NCBI GenBank assembly: GCA_900208305.1
Contig: OAPG01000001.1
Span: 1,116,001-1,180,000 of the forward strand
DNA length: 64,000 bases
Direction: 5' to 3'
Source of the DNA: Melanopsichium pennsylvanicum
Taxonomy: Eukaryota > Basidiomycota > Ustilaginomycetes > Ustilaginales
The notes under the pieces were generated by a model. The model searched no databases, had not been told where the DNA came from, and was given only the letters and a program-made list of their open reading frames with translations. A program made the position numbers and the translations under genes. Below are positions 3,123-9,863 of this stretch, piece by piece (position 1 is the stretch's first letter; the number at the start of each line of letters is the position of its first letter).

Positions 3123-4878
3123 TTTGCAAAAGTGGTTTCTCCTGACCGAGAAGATTAAGGTCCTGTAGTAGTGACAGTTGGTGCGGAGAGGGAAAAAGTT
3201 GCGCAAAGATCGAATTGGCGAGATCAGCAAAATGATTCCAGTCGATCGTTTTTAACAGTAGTTGCAAAGGCGCAAAAGAGTGCCGAACTGCGTGCAGGCA
3301 CAGAGGATGCTGATACAAACAATTATGGGAGATGGGAAGTGGCGGGGGGACCAGTGAAACGAGGAGGTGGAAGGTCGATCGAAGATGGTGACGGTGATGT
3401 TGATGAAAATGCAATGAGACGCGGGTAGCTCCTTGAACAACAACGAGCGAAACTCAGAGAAAGGAAGGTGTGCGTGTGTGTGCTGTTCGTGAGCTTGGGT
3501 GCGCTGCGTGAACGGTCGTGCATCTGCTGGCTGCCCCTCTGAACTTGAATCAGACAGACACCTCTATCCAAGCCGCCCAGCTTACTGTACCTTCGCTATC
3601 GTGGCGATGCGGCTGGCAGTGACTTGAAAGTGCTTGGCTGCCCAGCAGCCTGGCCGTCTGCTGCCTTCCAGCTTCAAGCACAGCTCTCTTTAAAGATGAA
3701 CCAAGGAAGATGCGTGTCCAGTTGATTTTCGAAAACAGCGACTTTAAACTCGATTCTTAGTAACCGAATTCAATTGCCACAAGTGGGCTGAAATCTCGAT
3801 AACAAGATTTTGTTGCACCTTTCATATGAACTTGTAGCTGCTATATCTTTGACTTTAAAGGCAATTAGTAAATGGAATTTCCACAAATAGCAAGAACAAC
3901 ACTGAAGCGCTTGAGCCAGTTCCAGAATTTAATCCGTGTTTGGCACCTGAATACAAACAATTAACAGACCTGGGCTTGTCTGTGGTAGGCCTGCATTCTG
4001 TCCATTTTTGGCTTTCAATGAATCAAAAATCTTTTTAAAATTCTCAGCTGCTCCTCGGGTTGGCCTTGAAGCTCGGCCTCATTGTGTTGTGGTGTGTTGG
4101 GAGCACGTAAGCAACGTCAAGGCAGCTCAGTCGATGCGCAAGCTCCGAAGTGGTGTCCTCGCTCTTTTGAAAGCAAAAGGCCTCGTGCATAGTTCAACCT
4201 AGCTTCGAACAAGATACCAGGTCTTTGCAGGCTGGTCAATCTCTCTCAAACTGTGATGAAAGGTGATAAAGCTTGTACGGGTGCGGGATCGGGGCTCGTG
4301 AGCTCATCGTTTACGCCAAGAGTGACGTCTCATCATGTCACCAGAAGATGCGGTAGCTTCAGCGCCTGTCGCACCATCTCAAGTTGCAAGTGCCCGAGGC
4401 GTGCGACCCTGCGCGAAGACGTCTTCGGTGAATTCAATCAGACAGATGCGATAATCCGACTACGTTAACGAGGCAAAAGTGTAAGCTTGCCTCCAGGCTG
4501 CACACGGATCAACTTAACTTCTTCTCCATTCATCGGTCTTGTTATCGAAACCTCTTTGCAACCAGGCCCGATCGCAGCAAAAGATACCGACTTTGAGGCT
4601 CAAGCCTCGGATTGATTGACAAAGAGATGTGATTGGCATCCCGTCTTGGAGAGGCGCAAACATGTCCAAAAATGGCAAAAGCCAACTTTCCTCTTGGAAA
4701 TCAGAAAGACGCAGGAATAGGCGATCGCTCTCCTATGAGCGTGCCGGCTCGGTCATCCTGCGGCACGCACTCAGGATTCGTTTGCCCACAAAGTCGCTCA
4801 AACCCACGAAAGTGACATCAAGAGAAGCTAAAACCTGACGACGGGACCGAAACACAACCACTGTCGAAACTAGGCGGA
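3123..4878. other. Upstream region of ARF1 and left flank of the retrotransposon
   Basis: No gene is supported here. The part next to 3123 should hold the ARF1 promoter and 5' leader (minus strand); it has CA/GT-rich and CT-rich stretches near 3460-3560. From about 3700 to 4050 the sequence is AT-richer than its surroundings. The short frames near 4250-4840 show no domain. The retrotransposon entered the DNA at 4879-4883. Confidence 0.5.
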
Positions 4879-4883
4879 TATGC
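4879..4883. repeat. Target-site duplication, left copy (tatgc)
   Basis: The five bases tatgc directly precede the left LTR and recur directly after the right LTR at 9859-9863. Five base pairs is the usual duplication size for Ty1/copia integrases. This fixes the ends of the element. Confidence 0.9.
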
Positions 4884-4981
4884 AGTTGAAGATATTGCGC
4901 CGACCGAATTAGATGGGCAGATGAATTAAGGCATGAGGCGAATAAAGCTGAATGCGGACAAAGCGAAGAAACTGAAGGCGA

Positions 4982-5051
4982 TGGCTCCCAATAGGGGGCT
5001 CGAACCCCTGACATTCATGGCTCCCAATAGGGGGCTCGAACCCCTGACATT
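4982..5051 (-). repeat. Tandem copies of the 3' half of a lysine tRNA (complement), left LTR
   Basis: Two adjacent copies, 4982-5017 (36 bp) and 5018-5051 (34 bp), begin TGGCTCCCAAT. Read on the minus strand, the first is tRNA nucleotides 41 to 76: three bases of the anticodon stem, variable loop ATGTC, T-stem AGGGG/CCCCT closing loop TTCGAGC, acceptor strand ATTGGGA, discriminator G and CCA. Fungal tRNA genes do not encode CCA, so the source was a mature tRNA copied by reverse transcription. The body closely resembles yeast tRNA-Lys as I recall it. Each copy contains a full B-box (GGTTCGAGCCC on the minus strand), the TFIIIC binding site. This is not a tRNA gene: the 5' half and A-box are missing. 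Confidence 0.85.
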
Positions 5052-5142
5052 AATAAGAGGGAAATATTGTAATACGTGTATAGCGAACGATACTTGACAA
5101 GATTACCCTGTCTTTGCCGAATTTTGGGGGCCGCGACGAAGG

Positions 5143-5150
5143 TATATAAA
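5143..5150 (+). promoter_or_regulatory. LTR TATA box
   Basis: The sequence TATATAAA lies 70 bp before the end of the left LTR, the place expected for the retrotransposon's RNA polymerase II promoter. The same box is in the right LTR at 9781-9788. Confidence 0.65.
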
Positions 5151-5220
5151 CCCGAAGATTCAGCATGTAAATAGTCAGAAAAATCAAGCAAATAAGAACC
5201 AAGAATAACAACCTTCAACT

Positions 5221-5240
5221 GATTAAGAGTCTGAATGCTC
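5221..5240 (+). other. Primer binding site for a half-tRNA (Lys, anticodon CUU)
   Basis: The 20 bases gattaagagtctgaatgctc start at the first base after the left LTR. Their complement reads as tRNA nucleotides 21-40: end of the D-arm (GAGC), then the anticodon arm with loop CTCTTAA (anticodon CTT, lysine). A normal primer site pairs with the tRNA 3' end and begins TGG; this one pairs with the anticodon arm. Drosophila copia works the same way with a cleaved initiator-Met tRNA cut after nucleotide 39. Here the cut would follow nucleotide 40. The match ends at 5240, where complementarity to a standard D-loop stops. Confidence 0.8.
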
Positions 5241-5295
5241 AGAACGACGAGCTAACAAGAACAAGAAACAAGAACAAGAAACAAGAACCAAGAAA

Positions 5296-6270
5296 ATGTC
5301 CAGCGTCGAACCACAGACTATGCCAGTCGAGGCTCAAGGCATAGCTAAGAAAACTCGAGCAAGAAGAAACAAGAACACCGCCCCCACTCATAACGACGAT
5401 GAAGAAGAACTCGAAGACGAGTGTGACTTCCAGCCGATCCGAAACCTCGACCCAATCATCATGCAGAAACATTTCAGCAGCCTGGGCGAACTTACGAGCA
5501 AGAACTGGGGATTTTGGAATTCAGATTTTGAACGACTAATGTTATCCCTCGAGGGAGTCGCCGAATATATTACAGGCGAGAAAAATCCCAACAGCGAAGG
5601 TTGGAATAAACATTTGGATAACATGATGTGTTCAATCATCATTAGCAAGATGAAAACCGGAGGCGAGGATGGACTCGACTCGCTCAAGAGCAAAATCATC
5701 GGATTAAAAGTTGCTCATGTTGGAAAGCTCTGGAAGCTGATCAGAGAAGATCTCACGGTCGACAACGAAGAAAGGATTAAATTGATCCTGGATCAAATAG
5801 TATGTGCGAGGGTCCTTCACAACGATGTGAGGAAGTACATCAAGTACATCGAGGACCTTTCCAACGAGGCAACCTTAATTGGATATCCGTTCATCGACCA
5901 CACTCTTACGCATTACGTGCGCCAGCAACTGTACGGAAACCCAATTTACCAGGTAACCTTAGATATGCATCCGACTTCCTCGTTCAAAGCTCTTTGCACG
6001 GCTTTAGAATCCAAGCAGATCCAGCACGAGACACTCGGACCTGGTACATTTGTTAGAAGAAACCCAATCCATTATCAAGCTCGGGCAGCAAATGTAAGTG
6101 GTCCCAAGGAGGCCAATACTCCCTACTATTGGCAAGGACGGCGCGATCCCAGTAAGCCTAATGAGAGGCCGAAATGTTATAGCTGTGGACAAGTTGGGCA
6201 CATTGCTAGGCAGTGCTCATACCAGCAACAAAACAACCAGCCGGCCCCGGACGCCAAAACGAGCCAGTAG
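5296..6270 (+). CDS. gag: Retrotransposon Gag polyprotein
   Basis: 324-residue structural protein of the copia element, which packages element RNA in virus-like particles in the cytoplasm. The N-terminus is basic then acidic (about residues 15-45). The middle holds the copia Gag region, with W-rich GFWNSDFERL near residue 75. Near the C-terminus is a retroviral-type zinc knuckle, CYSCGQVGHIARQC (residues 294-307), followed by a Q/N-rich tail. The frame ends in UAG at 6268-6270 and stays open beyond it into pol without a frameshift. The start ATG is 76 bp after the LTR and is preceded by AAGAA-type repeats. Confidence 0.92.
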   Translation: MSSVEPQTMPVEAQGIAKKTRARRNKNTAPTHNDDEEELEDECDFQPIRNLDPIIMQKHFSSLGELTSKNWGFWNSDFERLMLSLEGVAEYITGEKNPNSEGWNKHLDNMMCSIIISKMKTGGEDGLDSLKSKIIGLKVAHVGKLWKLIREDLTVDNEERIKLILDQIVCARVLHNDVRKYIKYIEDLSNEATLIGYPFIDHTLTHYVRQQLYGNPIYQVTLDMHPTSSFKALCTALESKQIQHETLGPGTFVRRNPIHYQARAANVSGPKEANTPYYWQGRRDPSKPNERPKCYSCGQVGHIARQCSYQQQNNQPAPDAKTSQ

Positions 6271-6327
6271 GAATTTTGGTGCACCCTCACGAGCTCGCAC
6301 AAAGAAATTAACCCAGATACTTGGGTT
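6268..6327 (+). promoter_or_regulatory. Candidate stop-codon readthrough site between gag and pol
   Basis: The gag stop UAG sits in the context CAG TAG GAA. Pol continues in the same frame. A short hairpin, AACCCA (6310-6315) with TGGGTT (6322-6327) and a six-base loop, lies about 40 bases downstream. Some retroviruses make Gag-Pol by UAG readthrough with downstream structure. The hairpin is small and may be chance. The alternative is a simple nonsense mutation in an originally single gag-pol frame, as in copia itself. Confidence 0.4.
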
Positions 6328-9300
6328 GTGGACTCTGGTGCGAGCATGCATATGGTAAATGATTTCTCATTGCTCGTTGACCCAAAACCTTTTTCAGGCC
6401 AAGTTCACACGGCCGGAGAAGGATCATTGGAGATCAAAGCAATTGGAGATATATTCGCTCATGTAGGCATTATGCAAGTTCACCTGCGTAATGTATTATA
6501 TGTTCCAAAAGCGAATATAAAATTATTATCTGTTATTGCCTTGATGAAAGAGAGTGGTGCACGAGTGATTTTTGAAAATTCAGGAGGAAAGATTTATTTC
6601 CCAGATGGTGTGATTATTGGAGTAAAAGAAAATGTTGAGAGAAATTGGTTGGAAATTCGTACCAACCAGCGTGAGAATTATGGGCTACATCAGACAGAAG
6701 AATTATTCGAATGCCTACCAGAAAAAATGCAAATTCGCGAACCGAGCAGAAAAGTATCCAAGGAACACCTATGGCACGAAAGGCTCGGCCACCCAGGCCG
6801 AGATAAAGCTAGAGCAATCATCAAGAGATTTAGTGAATCAAGCGAAGTCAAATTGGACCCTGAAGATTCATTGGATTGTCACGAGTGCATCGCTGCCAAA
6901 AGCACACAGGCAAGAATGGGAAAGGGCAGTGGAGAAAGGGACAGCGAAGTACTCGGATTAATTCACGTCGATTTAATTACAGATTTATCAGGGACATCTG
7001 AATATCGGAACATCCTTGTAGCTGTTGATGACCATAGCGGGTACATATTGGCTACGCCAATTTTCAAGAAAAGCGATGCACTCGGGTGCCTACAAAATTG
7101 GACGAAATTCATGGAAAATCAAACAGGCAACAAGGTCAAAAGAATCAGGTCAGATAATGGTGGAGAATGGGCCAGCACTCTAGCAGATCAATGGAGCGCG
7201 AATGAAGGAATTCTTTGGGAAAAGACCTCGCCATACACCAGTACTCAGAATGGGCGTGTAGAGAGGATGAATCGCACACTCATGGAGAGAGTGCGAGCGC
7301 TGCTTAGCCAACGAGAATTACCAGCAAACCTGTGGCCATTTGCAGTCCAAGCAGCGGCTTTCACCATTAACCTCACTCCAGACCAACATGGACTCACACC
7401 GTACGAAAAGGCATTTAAACGGAAACCGGATCGATTTGTCCAACTACTCAGGGTATTTGGTTGTCTTGCATGGGTATTTATTCCTAAAGGAAGGCGGGAA
7501 CACGGCAAAATCGATGCTCGAGCTGTTGCGGCGGTACTGCTTGGATACAGTCTGACAAGGAAAAGTTGGCTATTTTACAGTCCAAACTACAAACCGGATT
7601 TATTCTGGAGTAATTCGGCTAAATTCCTCGAACAACAAAGTTGGCAAGATAGAACAGAGTTCCTCCCATTAAAAATCTATCCGCCAAAAGCACCGGTTGA
7701 CAATGCAGAAATTCCAGATCTAGGATACGAGGATCAAGACGCGAATTACGAAGATTACGAGGATGCCCTAAAACACCTAGTGGATGATGATTTCCCAGAA
7801 AACCAAGGAGAAATTCAGGAGGAGATTCCATCTGAAGAGCTTCAGCGCGAGGAAATCCCTAATTCGTCAACAGGAGCCAAAATCGATGAAAGCGAGAATA
7901 AAGCAAGAAAATCATCAAATGATAGGCGAAAATACGCTCTCATCGGTAATCCCAAAGTAGAGACGCTAGATTTGATGCCCACGGTCAAAGAGGCGATGGC
8001 ACGCGAAGATGCACAAAAGTGGAGAGAAGCGATAATGAAAGAAGTCGAGGGATTAGAAAAGAAAGGGACATGGGAAATTGTTGACAGACCATTAAACGTA
8101 AGGCTGGTTGATTCCAAATTAGTACTCAAGATCAAGACGGATGCAAATATGAAACCAACAAAATACAAGGCAAGACTGGTAGCACGAGGATTCACACAAC
8201 AGCAAGGAATTGACTATGACGAAATATTTGCGCCGGTTGCACCTATGGAAGCAATACGAGCTGTGCTCGCGATAGCGGCGTTCAATGATTGGGAAATTGA
8301 TTGCATTGATGTGGTTCAAGCATACTTGAACTCAGAATTGCATCACGAGGTGTACCTCAAGCCCCCGCAGATTACACAAGTACCGGAAGGTAAGGTTTAC
8401 AAATTAAAGAAAGGACTTTATGGGCTCAAGCAATCTGGGCGAGAATGGAATAAAATATTGGATCAACATTTGAAAGACATAGGTTTTAAGGGACTACCTT
8501 GTGCACCGTGCATCTACCTCAAAGGACAAGGCGATAAAATGGTAATTATCACCACCTATGTTGACGATATGCTGATAATTTCTCCAGACAAACGAGAAGT
8601 AAACAAAGTAAAAGACGACATAAGGCGAAAATGGGAAATTGAGGACAATGGACCCGTAACCGAATTTTTGGGTATAAAAATTACCAGAGACAGATACAAG
8701 AAAATCCTCGATCTAGATCTAGCAGCATACATCAAGAAAATGATCAGTAAGTGGCTACCAAACGGCGAGAAATCATGGCGACCAATGATATGCCCACTGG
8801 ACGCAGAAGAAACAGAAGAAATAATTGGGGAAAAATCGAAGAATTATCAGGAATTGGTTGGTCAACTATTATGGGTATCAAATACAGTGCGACCAGACAT
8901 AAGCTTCGCCGTTGGGTCATTGGCGAGGTACATGTCGAAACCGAGGGAAGGAGCTTGGGAAGCAGCTATTCAGGTATTAAAGTATTTAAATCAGACAGCC
9001 GAAAACACTTTGCGATACGAAAATAAAGAGGAAAATAAGCATCCAATAACAACGTACACAGATGCGAATTGGGCTTCAGAGAGGGCGACGAACAGAAGGA
9101 GTACCTCAGGATCCACGACGTTCATTTTCGGGAATTTGGTCAGTTGGAAATCGCAGGTACAGAAATGTGTGTCGCTATCGGCGGTGGAAGCAGAATTCGT
9201 GGCAGCATCAGACGCGGCGAGGGAGGCATTATTTTTCAAATATTTGCTGCGAGATTTGGGGGTTTCCGAAGAAAAACCGTTAATGTTGACCGATAGCATG

Positions 9301-9567
9301 GGATGCGTCCAAGTCAGCAAAGACGCGGCGAAACATTGGAAACTCAAACACATTGATACTCGGTACCATTTCATTAGGGATAATGTGCAATCCGGATCGC
9401 TGGAAATCAAGCATATCAGGACCGAAGAAAATTTGGCGGACATGTTGACCAAACCAGTACCAAAGGCAATCATTATGCGAACGTGTAACGGGATAAATAT
9501 GGTACGGCCGGCGAGGGGGGGAGTTGAAGATATTGCGCCGACCGAATTAGATGGGCAGATGAATTAA
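6271..9567 (+). CDS. pol: Retrotransposon Pol polyprotein (protease, integrase, RT, RNase H)
   Basis: About 1,098 residues downstream of the gag UAG, in the same frame. Domains, counted from 6271: aspartic protease DSGAS (near residue 21); GAG-pre-integrase with HHCC pattern (HERLGHPG near 168, CHEC near 206); integrase core with Asp in HVDLITD (about 232), Asp in RSDNGGEW and Glu in GRVERMNR; copia reverse transcriptase (from about 580) with YVDD (about 764); RNase H with TYTDANWAS (about 929) and SAVEAEFVA. The last 15 codons lie inside the right LTR. The first ATG (6346) is after the protease Asp, so initiation there would lose the active site; synthesis as Gag-Pol is implied. No other disabling change is seen. 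Confidence 0.93.
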   Translation, partial: EFWCTLTSSHKEINPDTWVVDSGASMHMVNDFSLLVDPKPFSGQVHTAGEGSLEIKAIGDIFAHVGIMQVHLRNVLYVPKANIKLLSVIALMKESGARVIFENSGGKIYFPDGVIIGVKENVERNWLEIRTNQRENYGLHQTEELFECLPEKMQIREPSRKVSKEHLWHERLGHPGRDKARAIIKRFSESSEVKLDPEDSLDCHECIAAKSTQARMGKGSGERDSEVLGLIHVDLITDLSGTSEYRNILVAVDDHSGYILATPIFKKSDALGCLQNWTKFMENQTGNKVKRIRSDNGGEWASTLADQWSANEGILWEKTSPYTSTQNGRVERMNRTLMERVRALLSQRELPANLWPFAVQAAAFTINLTPDQHGLTPYEKAFKRKPDRFVQLLRVFGCLAWVFIPKGRREHGKIDARAVAAVLLGYSLTRKSWLFYSPNYKPDLFWSNSAKFLEQQSWQDRTEFLPLKIYPPKAPVDNAEIPDLGYEDQDANYEDYEDALKHLVDDDFPENQGEIQEEIPSEELQREEIPNSSTGAKIDESENKARKSSNDRRKYALIGNPKVETLDLMPTVKEAMAREDAQKWREAIMKEVEGLEKKGTWEIVDRPLNVRLVDSKLVLKIKTDANMKPTKYKARLVARGFTQQQGIDYDEIFAPVAPMEAIRAVLAIAAFNDWEIDCIDVVQAYLNSELHHEVYLKPPQITQVPEGKVYKLKKGLYGLKQSGREWNKILDQHLKDIGFKGLPCAPCIYLKGQGDKMVIITTYVDDMLIISPDKREVNKVKDDIRRKWEIEDNGPVTEFLGIKITRDRYKKILDLDLAAYIKKMISKWLPNGEKSWRPMICPLDAEETEEIIGEKSKNYQELVGQLLWVSNTVRPDISFAVGSLARYMSKPREGAWEAAIQVLKYLNQTAENTLRYENKEENKHPITTYTDANWASERATNRRSTSGSTTFIFGNLVSWKSQVQKCVSLSAVEAEFVAASDAAREALFFKYLLRDLGVSEEKPLMLTDSMGCVQVSKDAAKHWKLKHIDTRYHFIRDNVQSGSLEIKHIRTEENLADMLTKPVPKAIIMRTCNGINMVRPARGGVEDIAPTELDGQMN
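9513..9521 (+). other. Polypurine tract
   Basis: The purine run gaggggggg ends directly at the first base of the right LTR (9522). This is the expected position of the plus-strand primer. Confidence 0.75.
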
Positions 9568-9858
9568 GGCATGAGGCGAATAAAGCTGAATGCGGACAAA
9601 GCGAAGAAACTGAAGGCGATGGCTCCCAATAGGGGGCTCGAACCCCTGACATTCATGGCTCCCAATAGGGGGCTCGAACCCCTGACATTAATAAGAGGGA
9701 AATATTGTAATACGTGTATAGCGAACGATACTTGACAAGATTACCCTGTCTTTGCCGAATTTTGGGGGCCGCGACGAAGGTATATAAACCCGAAGATTCA
9801 GCATGTAAATAGTCAGAAAAATCAAGCAAATAAGAACCAAGAATAACAACCTTCAACT
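9522..9858 (+). repeat. Right (3') LTR
   Basis: A 337-bp repeat matching the left LTR at all positions I compared. It carries the same two tRNA-derived copies (9620-9655 and 9656-9689) and a TATA box at 9781-9788. The stop codon of pol is at 9565-9567 inside it. Confidence 0.95.
9620..9689 (-). repeat. Tandem copies of the 3' half of a lysine tRNA (complement), right LTR
   Basis: Same arrangement as in the left LTR: a 36-bp unit at 9620-9655 and a 34-bp unit at 9656-9689, corresponding on the minus strand to tRNA nucleotides 41-76 and 43-76 with CCA. Each has a B-box. Confidence 0.85.
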
Positions 9859-9863
9859 TATGC
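9859..9863. repeat. Target-site duplication, right copy (tatgc)
   Basis: Direct repeat of 4879-4883 at the other end of the element. Confidence 0.9.

Follow-up and report, generated by a model that had tools for sequence, protein, structure and literature searches.

The tRNA of Drosophila copia is cleaved near nucleotides 39/40. Copia is primed from a half-tRNA, and in Ty5 RNase P cleaves within the anticodon loop to make the end from which copying starts, according to the accessible text of one source (PMC5371799). The accessible part of another describes Puccinia Copia families with a primer site complementary to the anticodon stem-loop, intron-containing tRNA genes, and 5-bp target site duplications (TSDs) (PMC10886601, Kojima 2024). 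Neither the making of half-tRNA primers nor the fate of the discarded 3' half is easy to observe directly. Other retroelements are associated with tRNA sequence in different ways. Helenus elements (TRIMp3), found also in basidiomycetes and with 5-bp TSDs in fungi, have tRNA-derived sequence in their LTRs. They are short and non-coding, contain A and B boxes, and have been proposed to originate by SINE insertion; the accessible text reports that their tRNA-like part and their primer site are not complementary (PMC10886601). For LINE-1, the available portion of a recent study lists 21 tRNA/LINE-1 chimeras, typically half-length and mostly antisense (PMC13174262, 2026). Finally, Ty3 primes from the native tRNA 3' end and has primer-site segments both at the 5' primer-binding site and in the 3' U3, where the sequence binds the primer tRNA, as far as the text at hand describes it (PMC5371799).

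The window, a stretch of 64,000 nucleotides (C1:1116001-1180000) of the Melanopsichium pennsylvanicum genome (21.1 Mb scanned, 61 contigs), contains a two-LTR Ty1/copia element at 4884-9858, with LTRs, a TSD, and an integrase preceding an RVT_2 reverse transcriptase. Judged by its sequence, this is a recently active retrotransposon. Like Drosophila copia, yeast Ty5, and the Puccinia Copia families, it combines a copia-type pol with a primer site complementary to an anticodon stem-loop. It differs from these half-tRNA-primed elements in that the tRNA is tRNA-Lys, the predicted cut lies at 40/41, and 3' halves of the tRNA are present in the LTR. Its features, in window positions, are the following (nt, nucleotide).

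4879-4883, no strand: TSD TATGC, 5' copy (TSD comparison)
4884-5220, plus: 5' LTR, 337 nt, ends AGTTGAAG...CTTCAACT (boundary set by TSDs in 8/8 two-LTR elements)
4982-5017, minus: tRNA unit 1, complement of tRNA-Lys(UUU) nt 76-41 including CCA, 36 nt
5018-5051, minus: tRNA unit 2, complement of tRNA-Lys(UUU) nt 76-43 including CCA, 34 nt
5143-5150, plus: TATA-like TATATAAA (from sequence)
5221-5234, plus: primer-binding site, complement of tRNA-Lys nt 27-40 (CUU 14/14; UUU 13/14 plus G.U)
5235-5256, plus: primer site continues imperfectly, with similarity to the complement of the D arm (score reached by 5/2000 shuffles)
5296-6270, plus: gag with zinc knuckle, ending in TAG (6268-6270)
6271-9567, plus: pol frame (integrase, RVT_2 reverse transcriptase), in frame with gag past the TAG and extending into the 3' LTR
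9513-9521, plus: polypurine tract GAGGGGGGG, adjoining the 3' LTR (from sequence)
9522-9858, plus: 3' LTR, 100% identical to the 5' LTR
9620-9655, minus: tRNA unit 1, 3' LTR copy
9656-9689, minus: tRNA unit 2, 3' LTR copy
9859-9863, no strand: TSD TATGC, 3' copy

The LTR termini (4884-4891 and 9851-9858) form an 8-nt perfect inverted repeat and are not the usual TG...CA. The TAG separates gag from pol within a single frame, and its 21-nt context is identical in all eight two-LTR elements of the family, which suggests stop-codon readthrough rather than a broken frame; pCal/Tca2 is a stop-codon element. One copy, C15a, has a single-base insertion in gag, upstream of the TAG. A protein search with gag returned four rows: the element itself, a 235-aa M. 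pennsylvanicum protein (68% identical across 68% of the query), and two unnamed, distant proteins with 29% and 26% identity.

The 34-nt core of the tRNA units occurs in four exact copies in the window (4982-5015, 5018-5051, 9620-9653, and 9656-9689). None of 100 shuffles contained any match to it at three mismatches or fewer, and a chance origin was therefore rejected. Unit 1 reads TGG...TTCA and reaches nt 41, an exact edge that it alone has, since unit 2 ends at nt 43. Pattern searches of the genome identified a single gene for tRNA-Lys(UUU) and five for tRNA-Lys(CUU); in each of the six, an intron follows the anticodon. The units are identical to tRNA-Lys(UUU) over nt 41-73 (33/33; nt 43-73 in unit 2), with CCA on top. 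The UUU gene continues ...GGGAG-TCT and hence does not encode the CCA; neither do any of the five CUU genes found. This supports the mature 3' sequence of tRNA-Lys, with its CCA, as the probable source of the units. We rejected three other candidates: tRNA-Lys(CUU), whose 3' half has five differences from the insert (nt 49, 50, 64, 65, and 66); an inserted tRNA gene, because CCA is present and the 5' half absent; and a conventional primer site for a full tRNA that had been copied into the LTR, because the match spans 36 nt down to nt 41 and the true primer site is at the LTR end. A genome-wide search with nt 39-73 (at most three mismatches) gave 32 matches, namely the tRNA-Lys(UUU) gene itself (no mismatch) and 31 in the insert-bearing LTR family. 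ARAGORN called no tRNA in either the window or 19 loci, a result that is uninformative because it also misses the intron-containing tRNA-Lys(UUU) locus. The Lys genes are not listed in an Rfam tRNA search in which 63 of 1,080 candidates were scored.

The primer site GATTAAGAGTCTGA lies directly 3' of the LTR in all eight two-LTR elements. Its single imperfect position against tRNA-Lys(UUU) is the G.U pair, at nt 34, and the resemblance to the tRNA continues for 22 nt past it. Complementarity to an internal part of the tRNA, in the anticodon stem-loop, starting directly at the LTR end is the arrangement of half-tRNA-primed copia elements, and by its primer site the element would use a half-tRNA as primer. 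The LTR ends are set by 5-bp TSDs in the eight two-LTR elements and in both solo LTRs examined; hence, the first position of the primer site pairs with nt 40, which marks the end of the primer on the presumption that integrase does not trim the LTR end. The edge of the insert (nt 41, unit 1) and that of the primer (nt 40) thus meet at one bond, although they are read from different places in the element. The first-pass annotation had described the tandem 36-bp and 34-bp complementary copies with CCA in each LTR, the meeting of the two edges, the anticodon stem rebuilt from primer site and insert (TCAGA/TCTGA), and a CCA added after transcription, and we confirmed all of these. It had also taken the two pieces to come from one tRNA. 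Both are indeed tRNA-Lys, but the insert is of the UUU type and the primer site fits CUU best; in place of the same tRNA, the comparison indicates two isoacceptors with nearly identical anticodon stem-loops. The clear difference between the insert and the host tRNA-Lys(CUU) 3' half counts against that idea as it was worded, and the UUU isoacceptor rescues it in altered form.

The coincidence at 40/41 is notable; the junctions are few, and some are perhaps common by descent. In an inverted form of the insert, described below, one unit also ends at nt 41, before LTR sequence. Such an edge might arise without cleavage if a whole tRNA-Lys had been copied, or had mis-primed at U3, from its CCA end, with a stop near nt 41 caused by structure or modification. 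The CCA and the antisense orientation would be explained equally well, and the end of unit 2 at nt 43 suggests a loose stop. Yet this stop coincides with the end of the primer, the unit reads correctly through A58, and the insert-free relatives have no TGG at the site with which the CCA could pair, all of which make whole-tRNA copying unlikely. A58 of tRNA is often m1A, which is blocking, and we know of no strongly blocking modification at nt 40.

To follow the insert across the genome, we searched for the LTR, obtaining at least 37 match rows (28 candidates, all scored), and typed the insert in the 20 best, which have 89-100% identity. All 20 carry it, in four forms. The two-unit antisense form is the commonest (11/20 LTRs, two of them with one base changed just outside the insert). 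Two LTRs, both from one element on C12, have the two units with a two-base patch of the CUU type. The inverted form is found in six LTRs, belonging to three two-LTR elements on C4, C6, and C17 with three different TSDs. The last form, with one unit, is that of a solo LTR on C2, where one unit may simply have been lost as the solo LTR formed. The insert is absent from the seven other LTR relatives or fragments that we fetched (L022-L028). Among them, L022 spans nearly the whole LTR at 83%. GGCRAAYAA runs uninterrupted across the insert site in five of the seven (L024, L025, L026, L027, and L028), and in L022 and L023 both flanks are close to the LTR of the window and the centre is different. 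LTRs without the insert, for which the first-pass annotation had suggested looking, thus exist, and the counts of zero, one, and two units that it had proposed to search for all occur, within the LTR family of this genome. It had not seen the inverted, one-unit, and CUU-patched forms. Amplification of the insert along with the element is likewise supported. Whether the captured half was then duplicated, as it had put it, is uncertain, as two successive template jumps would explain the TTCA|TGG junction equally.

The eight two-LTR elements differ from one another at 1-9 positions when about 4.3 kb of internal sequence are aligned; of the 16 variable columns, two are single-base insertions (C15a and C6). 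Seven have identical LTR pairs, and the pair on C4 differs by one base. They nevertheless include three forms of the insert, which means that the insert changed form while the rest of the element hardly did. The inverted form occurs on differing internal backgrounds (C6 versus C4 and C17), and the two-unit element on C11 has variants in common with C4 and C17. This suggests that element copies exchanged sequence or that the form arose more than once. In the unit on C12, nt 64-66 are of the UUU type and nt 49-50 of the CUU type in both LTRs, with the switch within the common T arm; given exactly two random substitutions in the unit, this pattern has a probability of about 0.002. A jump onto a CUU 3' half would explain the patch, and so would gene conversion from a CUU gene. 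A rival view puts the origin of the whole insert at the DNA level: tRNA cDNA would have been inserted where the LTR had broken, or tRNA genes would have converted the site, and reverse transcription by the element would have taken no part. On this view, one of the five CUU genes found could have donated the patch as a conversion tract. We regard such an origin as improbable because the genes lack the CCA, the edge of the insert coincides with the primer end, and nt 39-73, at up to three mismatches, are found nowhere outside the LTR family except in the tRNA gene itself.

The units lie upstream of the TATA-like box, which would place them in U3; in the RNA, they are thus expected only near the 3' end. 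In the main form, U3 therein offers 36 + 34 nt of perfect complementarity to tRNA-Lys(UUU), which recalls the U3 sequence that binds the primer tRNA in Ty3, with the difference that here only the complementarity is observed. The units could be part of a split primer site of the Ty3 kind, holding the 3' half or a nicked tRNA in U3 with the 5' half at the primer site, so that the ends of the RNA would be brought close to each other, as described for Ty3. The predominance of the two-unit antisense form, 13/20 LTRs if the patched ones are included, is in line with this. However, the segment is reversed in 6/20 LTRs, the elements of which have the tRNA sense in their RNA and lack most of the complementarity, yet moved, as their three TSDs indicate. 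Antisense units would thus not be required for movement, unless these elements were helped in trans. The segment is also missing from 7/7 other relatives fetched, and the insert is UUU where the primer site is best CUU. We find a split primer site improbable here.

The T arm of the units contains GGTTCGAGCC, which we take to be a B-box-like motif. A role as a Pol III promoter element might have preserved the units, by analogy with a proposal for Helenus, whose LTRs are tRNA-like and in which GGTTC is given as conserved in the text available (PMC10886601). We consider this very improbable: the units cover no more than nt 41-76 and so have no A box, 14/20 LTRs carry them in antisense orientation, and the element possesses a TATA-like box along with its gag and pol frames. 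The element shares tRNA-derived sequence in the LTRs with Helenus, from which it otherwise differs. It is a coding element and not a short non-autonomous one, has a partial tRNA in place of an A box plus B box, includes the CCA, matches a host tRNA exactly, and has an insert edge that meets the primer end.

The best reading of these observations, to which we give a probability of roughly 0.62, is that 3' halves of tRNA-Lys were captured into U3 by a jumping reverse transcriptase, probably more than once. The tRNA-Lys molecules would be cut at 40/41; the 5' part would prime minus-strand DNA, and the 3' parts (nt 41-76) would stay with the enzyme. During plus-strand synthesis of U3, the enzyme would leave GGCGA for the CCA end of a 3' half, copy it down to nt 41, move on to the CCA end of another 3' half, and re-enter the element at (A)ATAAG. 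The CUU-patched and inverted forms would stem from later template switching, either between element copies or onto tRNA halves. At the insertion junction, no sequence was lost and at most one A is repeated, and this lack of an added duplication fits a template jump, unlike integrase or LINE insertion. In the main form, the plus strand carries the tRNA copy, and the antisense orientation agrees with copying during plus-strand synthesis. Jumping is also favoured by the perfect match (33/33) to the single tRNA-Lys(UUU) gene found, together with a CCA that this gene lacks. The meeting of the two edges at 40/41, the five relatives with an uninterrupted site, the mixed unit on C12, and the three forms among nearly identical elements point the same way. 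Several points argue against it: with a UUU half captured beside a primer site that is best CUU, cleavage at one bond would have to occur in two tRNA species; unit 2 stops at nt 43 instead of 41; and the CUU patch could come from gene conversion by a tRNA gene. Minus-strand copying of tRNA halves could account for the inverted form, although most of it would also follow from strand switching on an existing insert; its last junction (TTCA before TCATCGCC) is the sole part that speaks for a new tRNA copy. A more tentative extension, which we think doubtful though worth stating, is that U3 is a recurrent recorder of 3' halves from both tRNA-Lys isoacceptors, which would be co-packaged and regularly taken as templates by the reverse transcriptase. 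The array of UUU units, the patch of the CUU type, and the inverted array would then be separate writing events.

If template jumping is the correct explanation, both sides of one cut are legible in DNA, the end of the primer at nt 40 and the captured 3' halves from nt 41. The 3' halves would then remain near the reverse transcriptase, retain their CCA, and be available for copying into the element. Genome sequence could in that case serve to assay tRNA cleavage in this group, and LTRs would have a means of gaining new sequence. Under the recorder extension, the LTR would be a readable log of primer-making tRNA cleavage. The tRNA-half/LINE-1 chimeras offer a parallel, as tRNA halves captured, mostly antisense, by the reverse transcriptase of a retroelement. 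In the part of that study available, they are single-locus insertions, frequently of nt 1-37 (PMC13174262), whereas here 3' halves lie inside an LTR and are inherited by a family. Among the matches listed in our literature search, none described an LTR that had captured tRNA halves, which is weak evidence of absence because most subscription literature lies outside it.

Several relatives of the element have features of their own. In L024, 72% alike over 1.5 kb, the primer site is GATTCAGAGTCTGA (around 4312, minus strand); it would fit an anticodon loop reading CUG, perhaps of a tRNA-Gln half, making a primer switch possible. L025 has gag/primer-site sequence in both orientations (3264-4028, an inverted duplication) beside an insert-free LTR. 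In L022 (4796-5246), an insert-free 3' LTR of the family runs straight into TTAGGG telomere repeats at the contig end, and L026 is near telomere repeats on C22. A genome search for captured tRNA 3' ends (TGG plus B-box pattern) gave 134 matches versus 122 in the reversed control. Besides the units of the LTR family, the matches listed include one repeated tRNA-like sequence at four places: TGGTGACAAGAGTGGGATTCGAACC, at C1:691993, C2:1617528, C3:733331, and C5:248747, looks like a tRNA 3' end with CCA after the gene.
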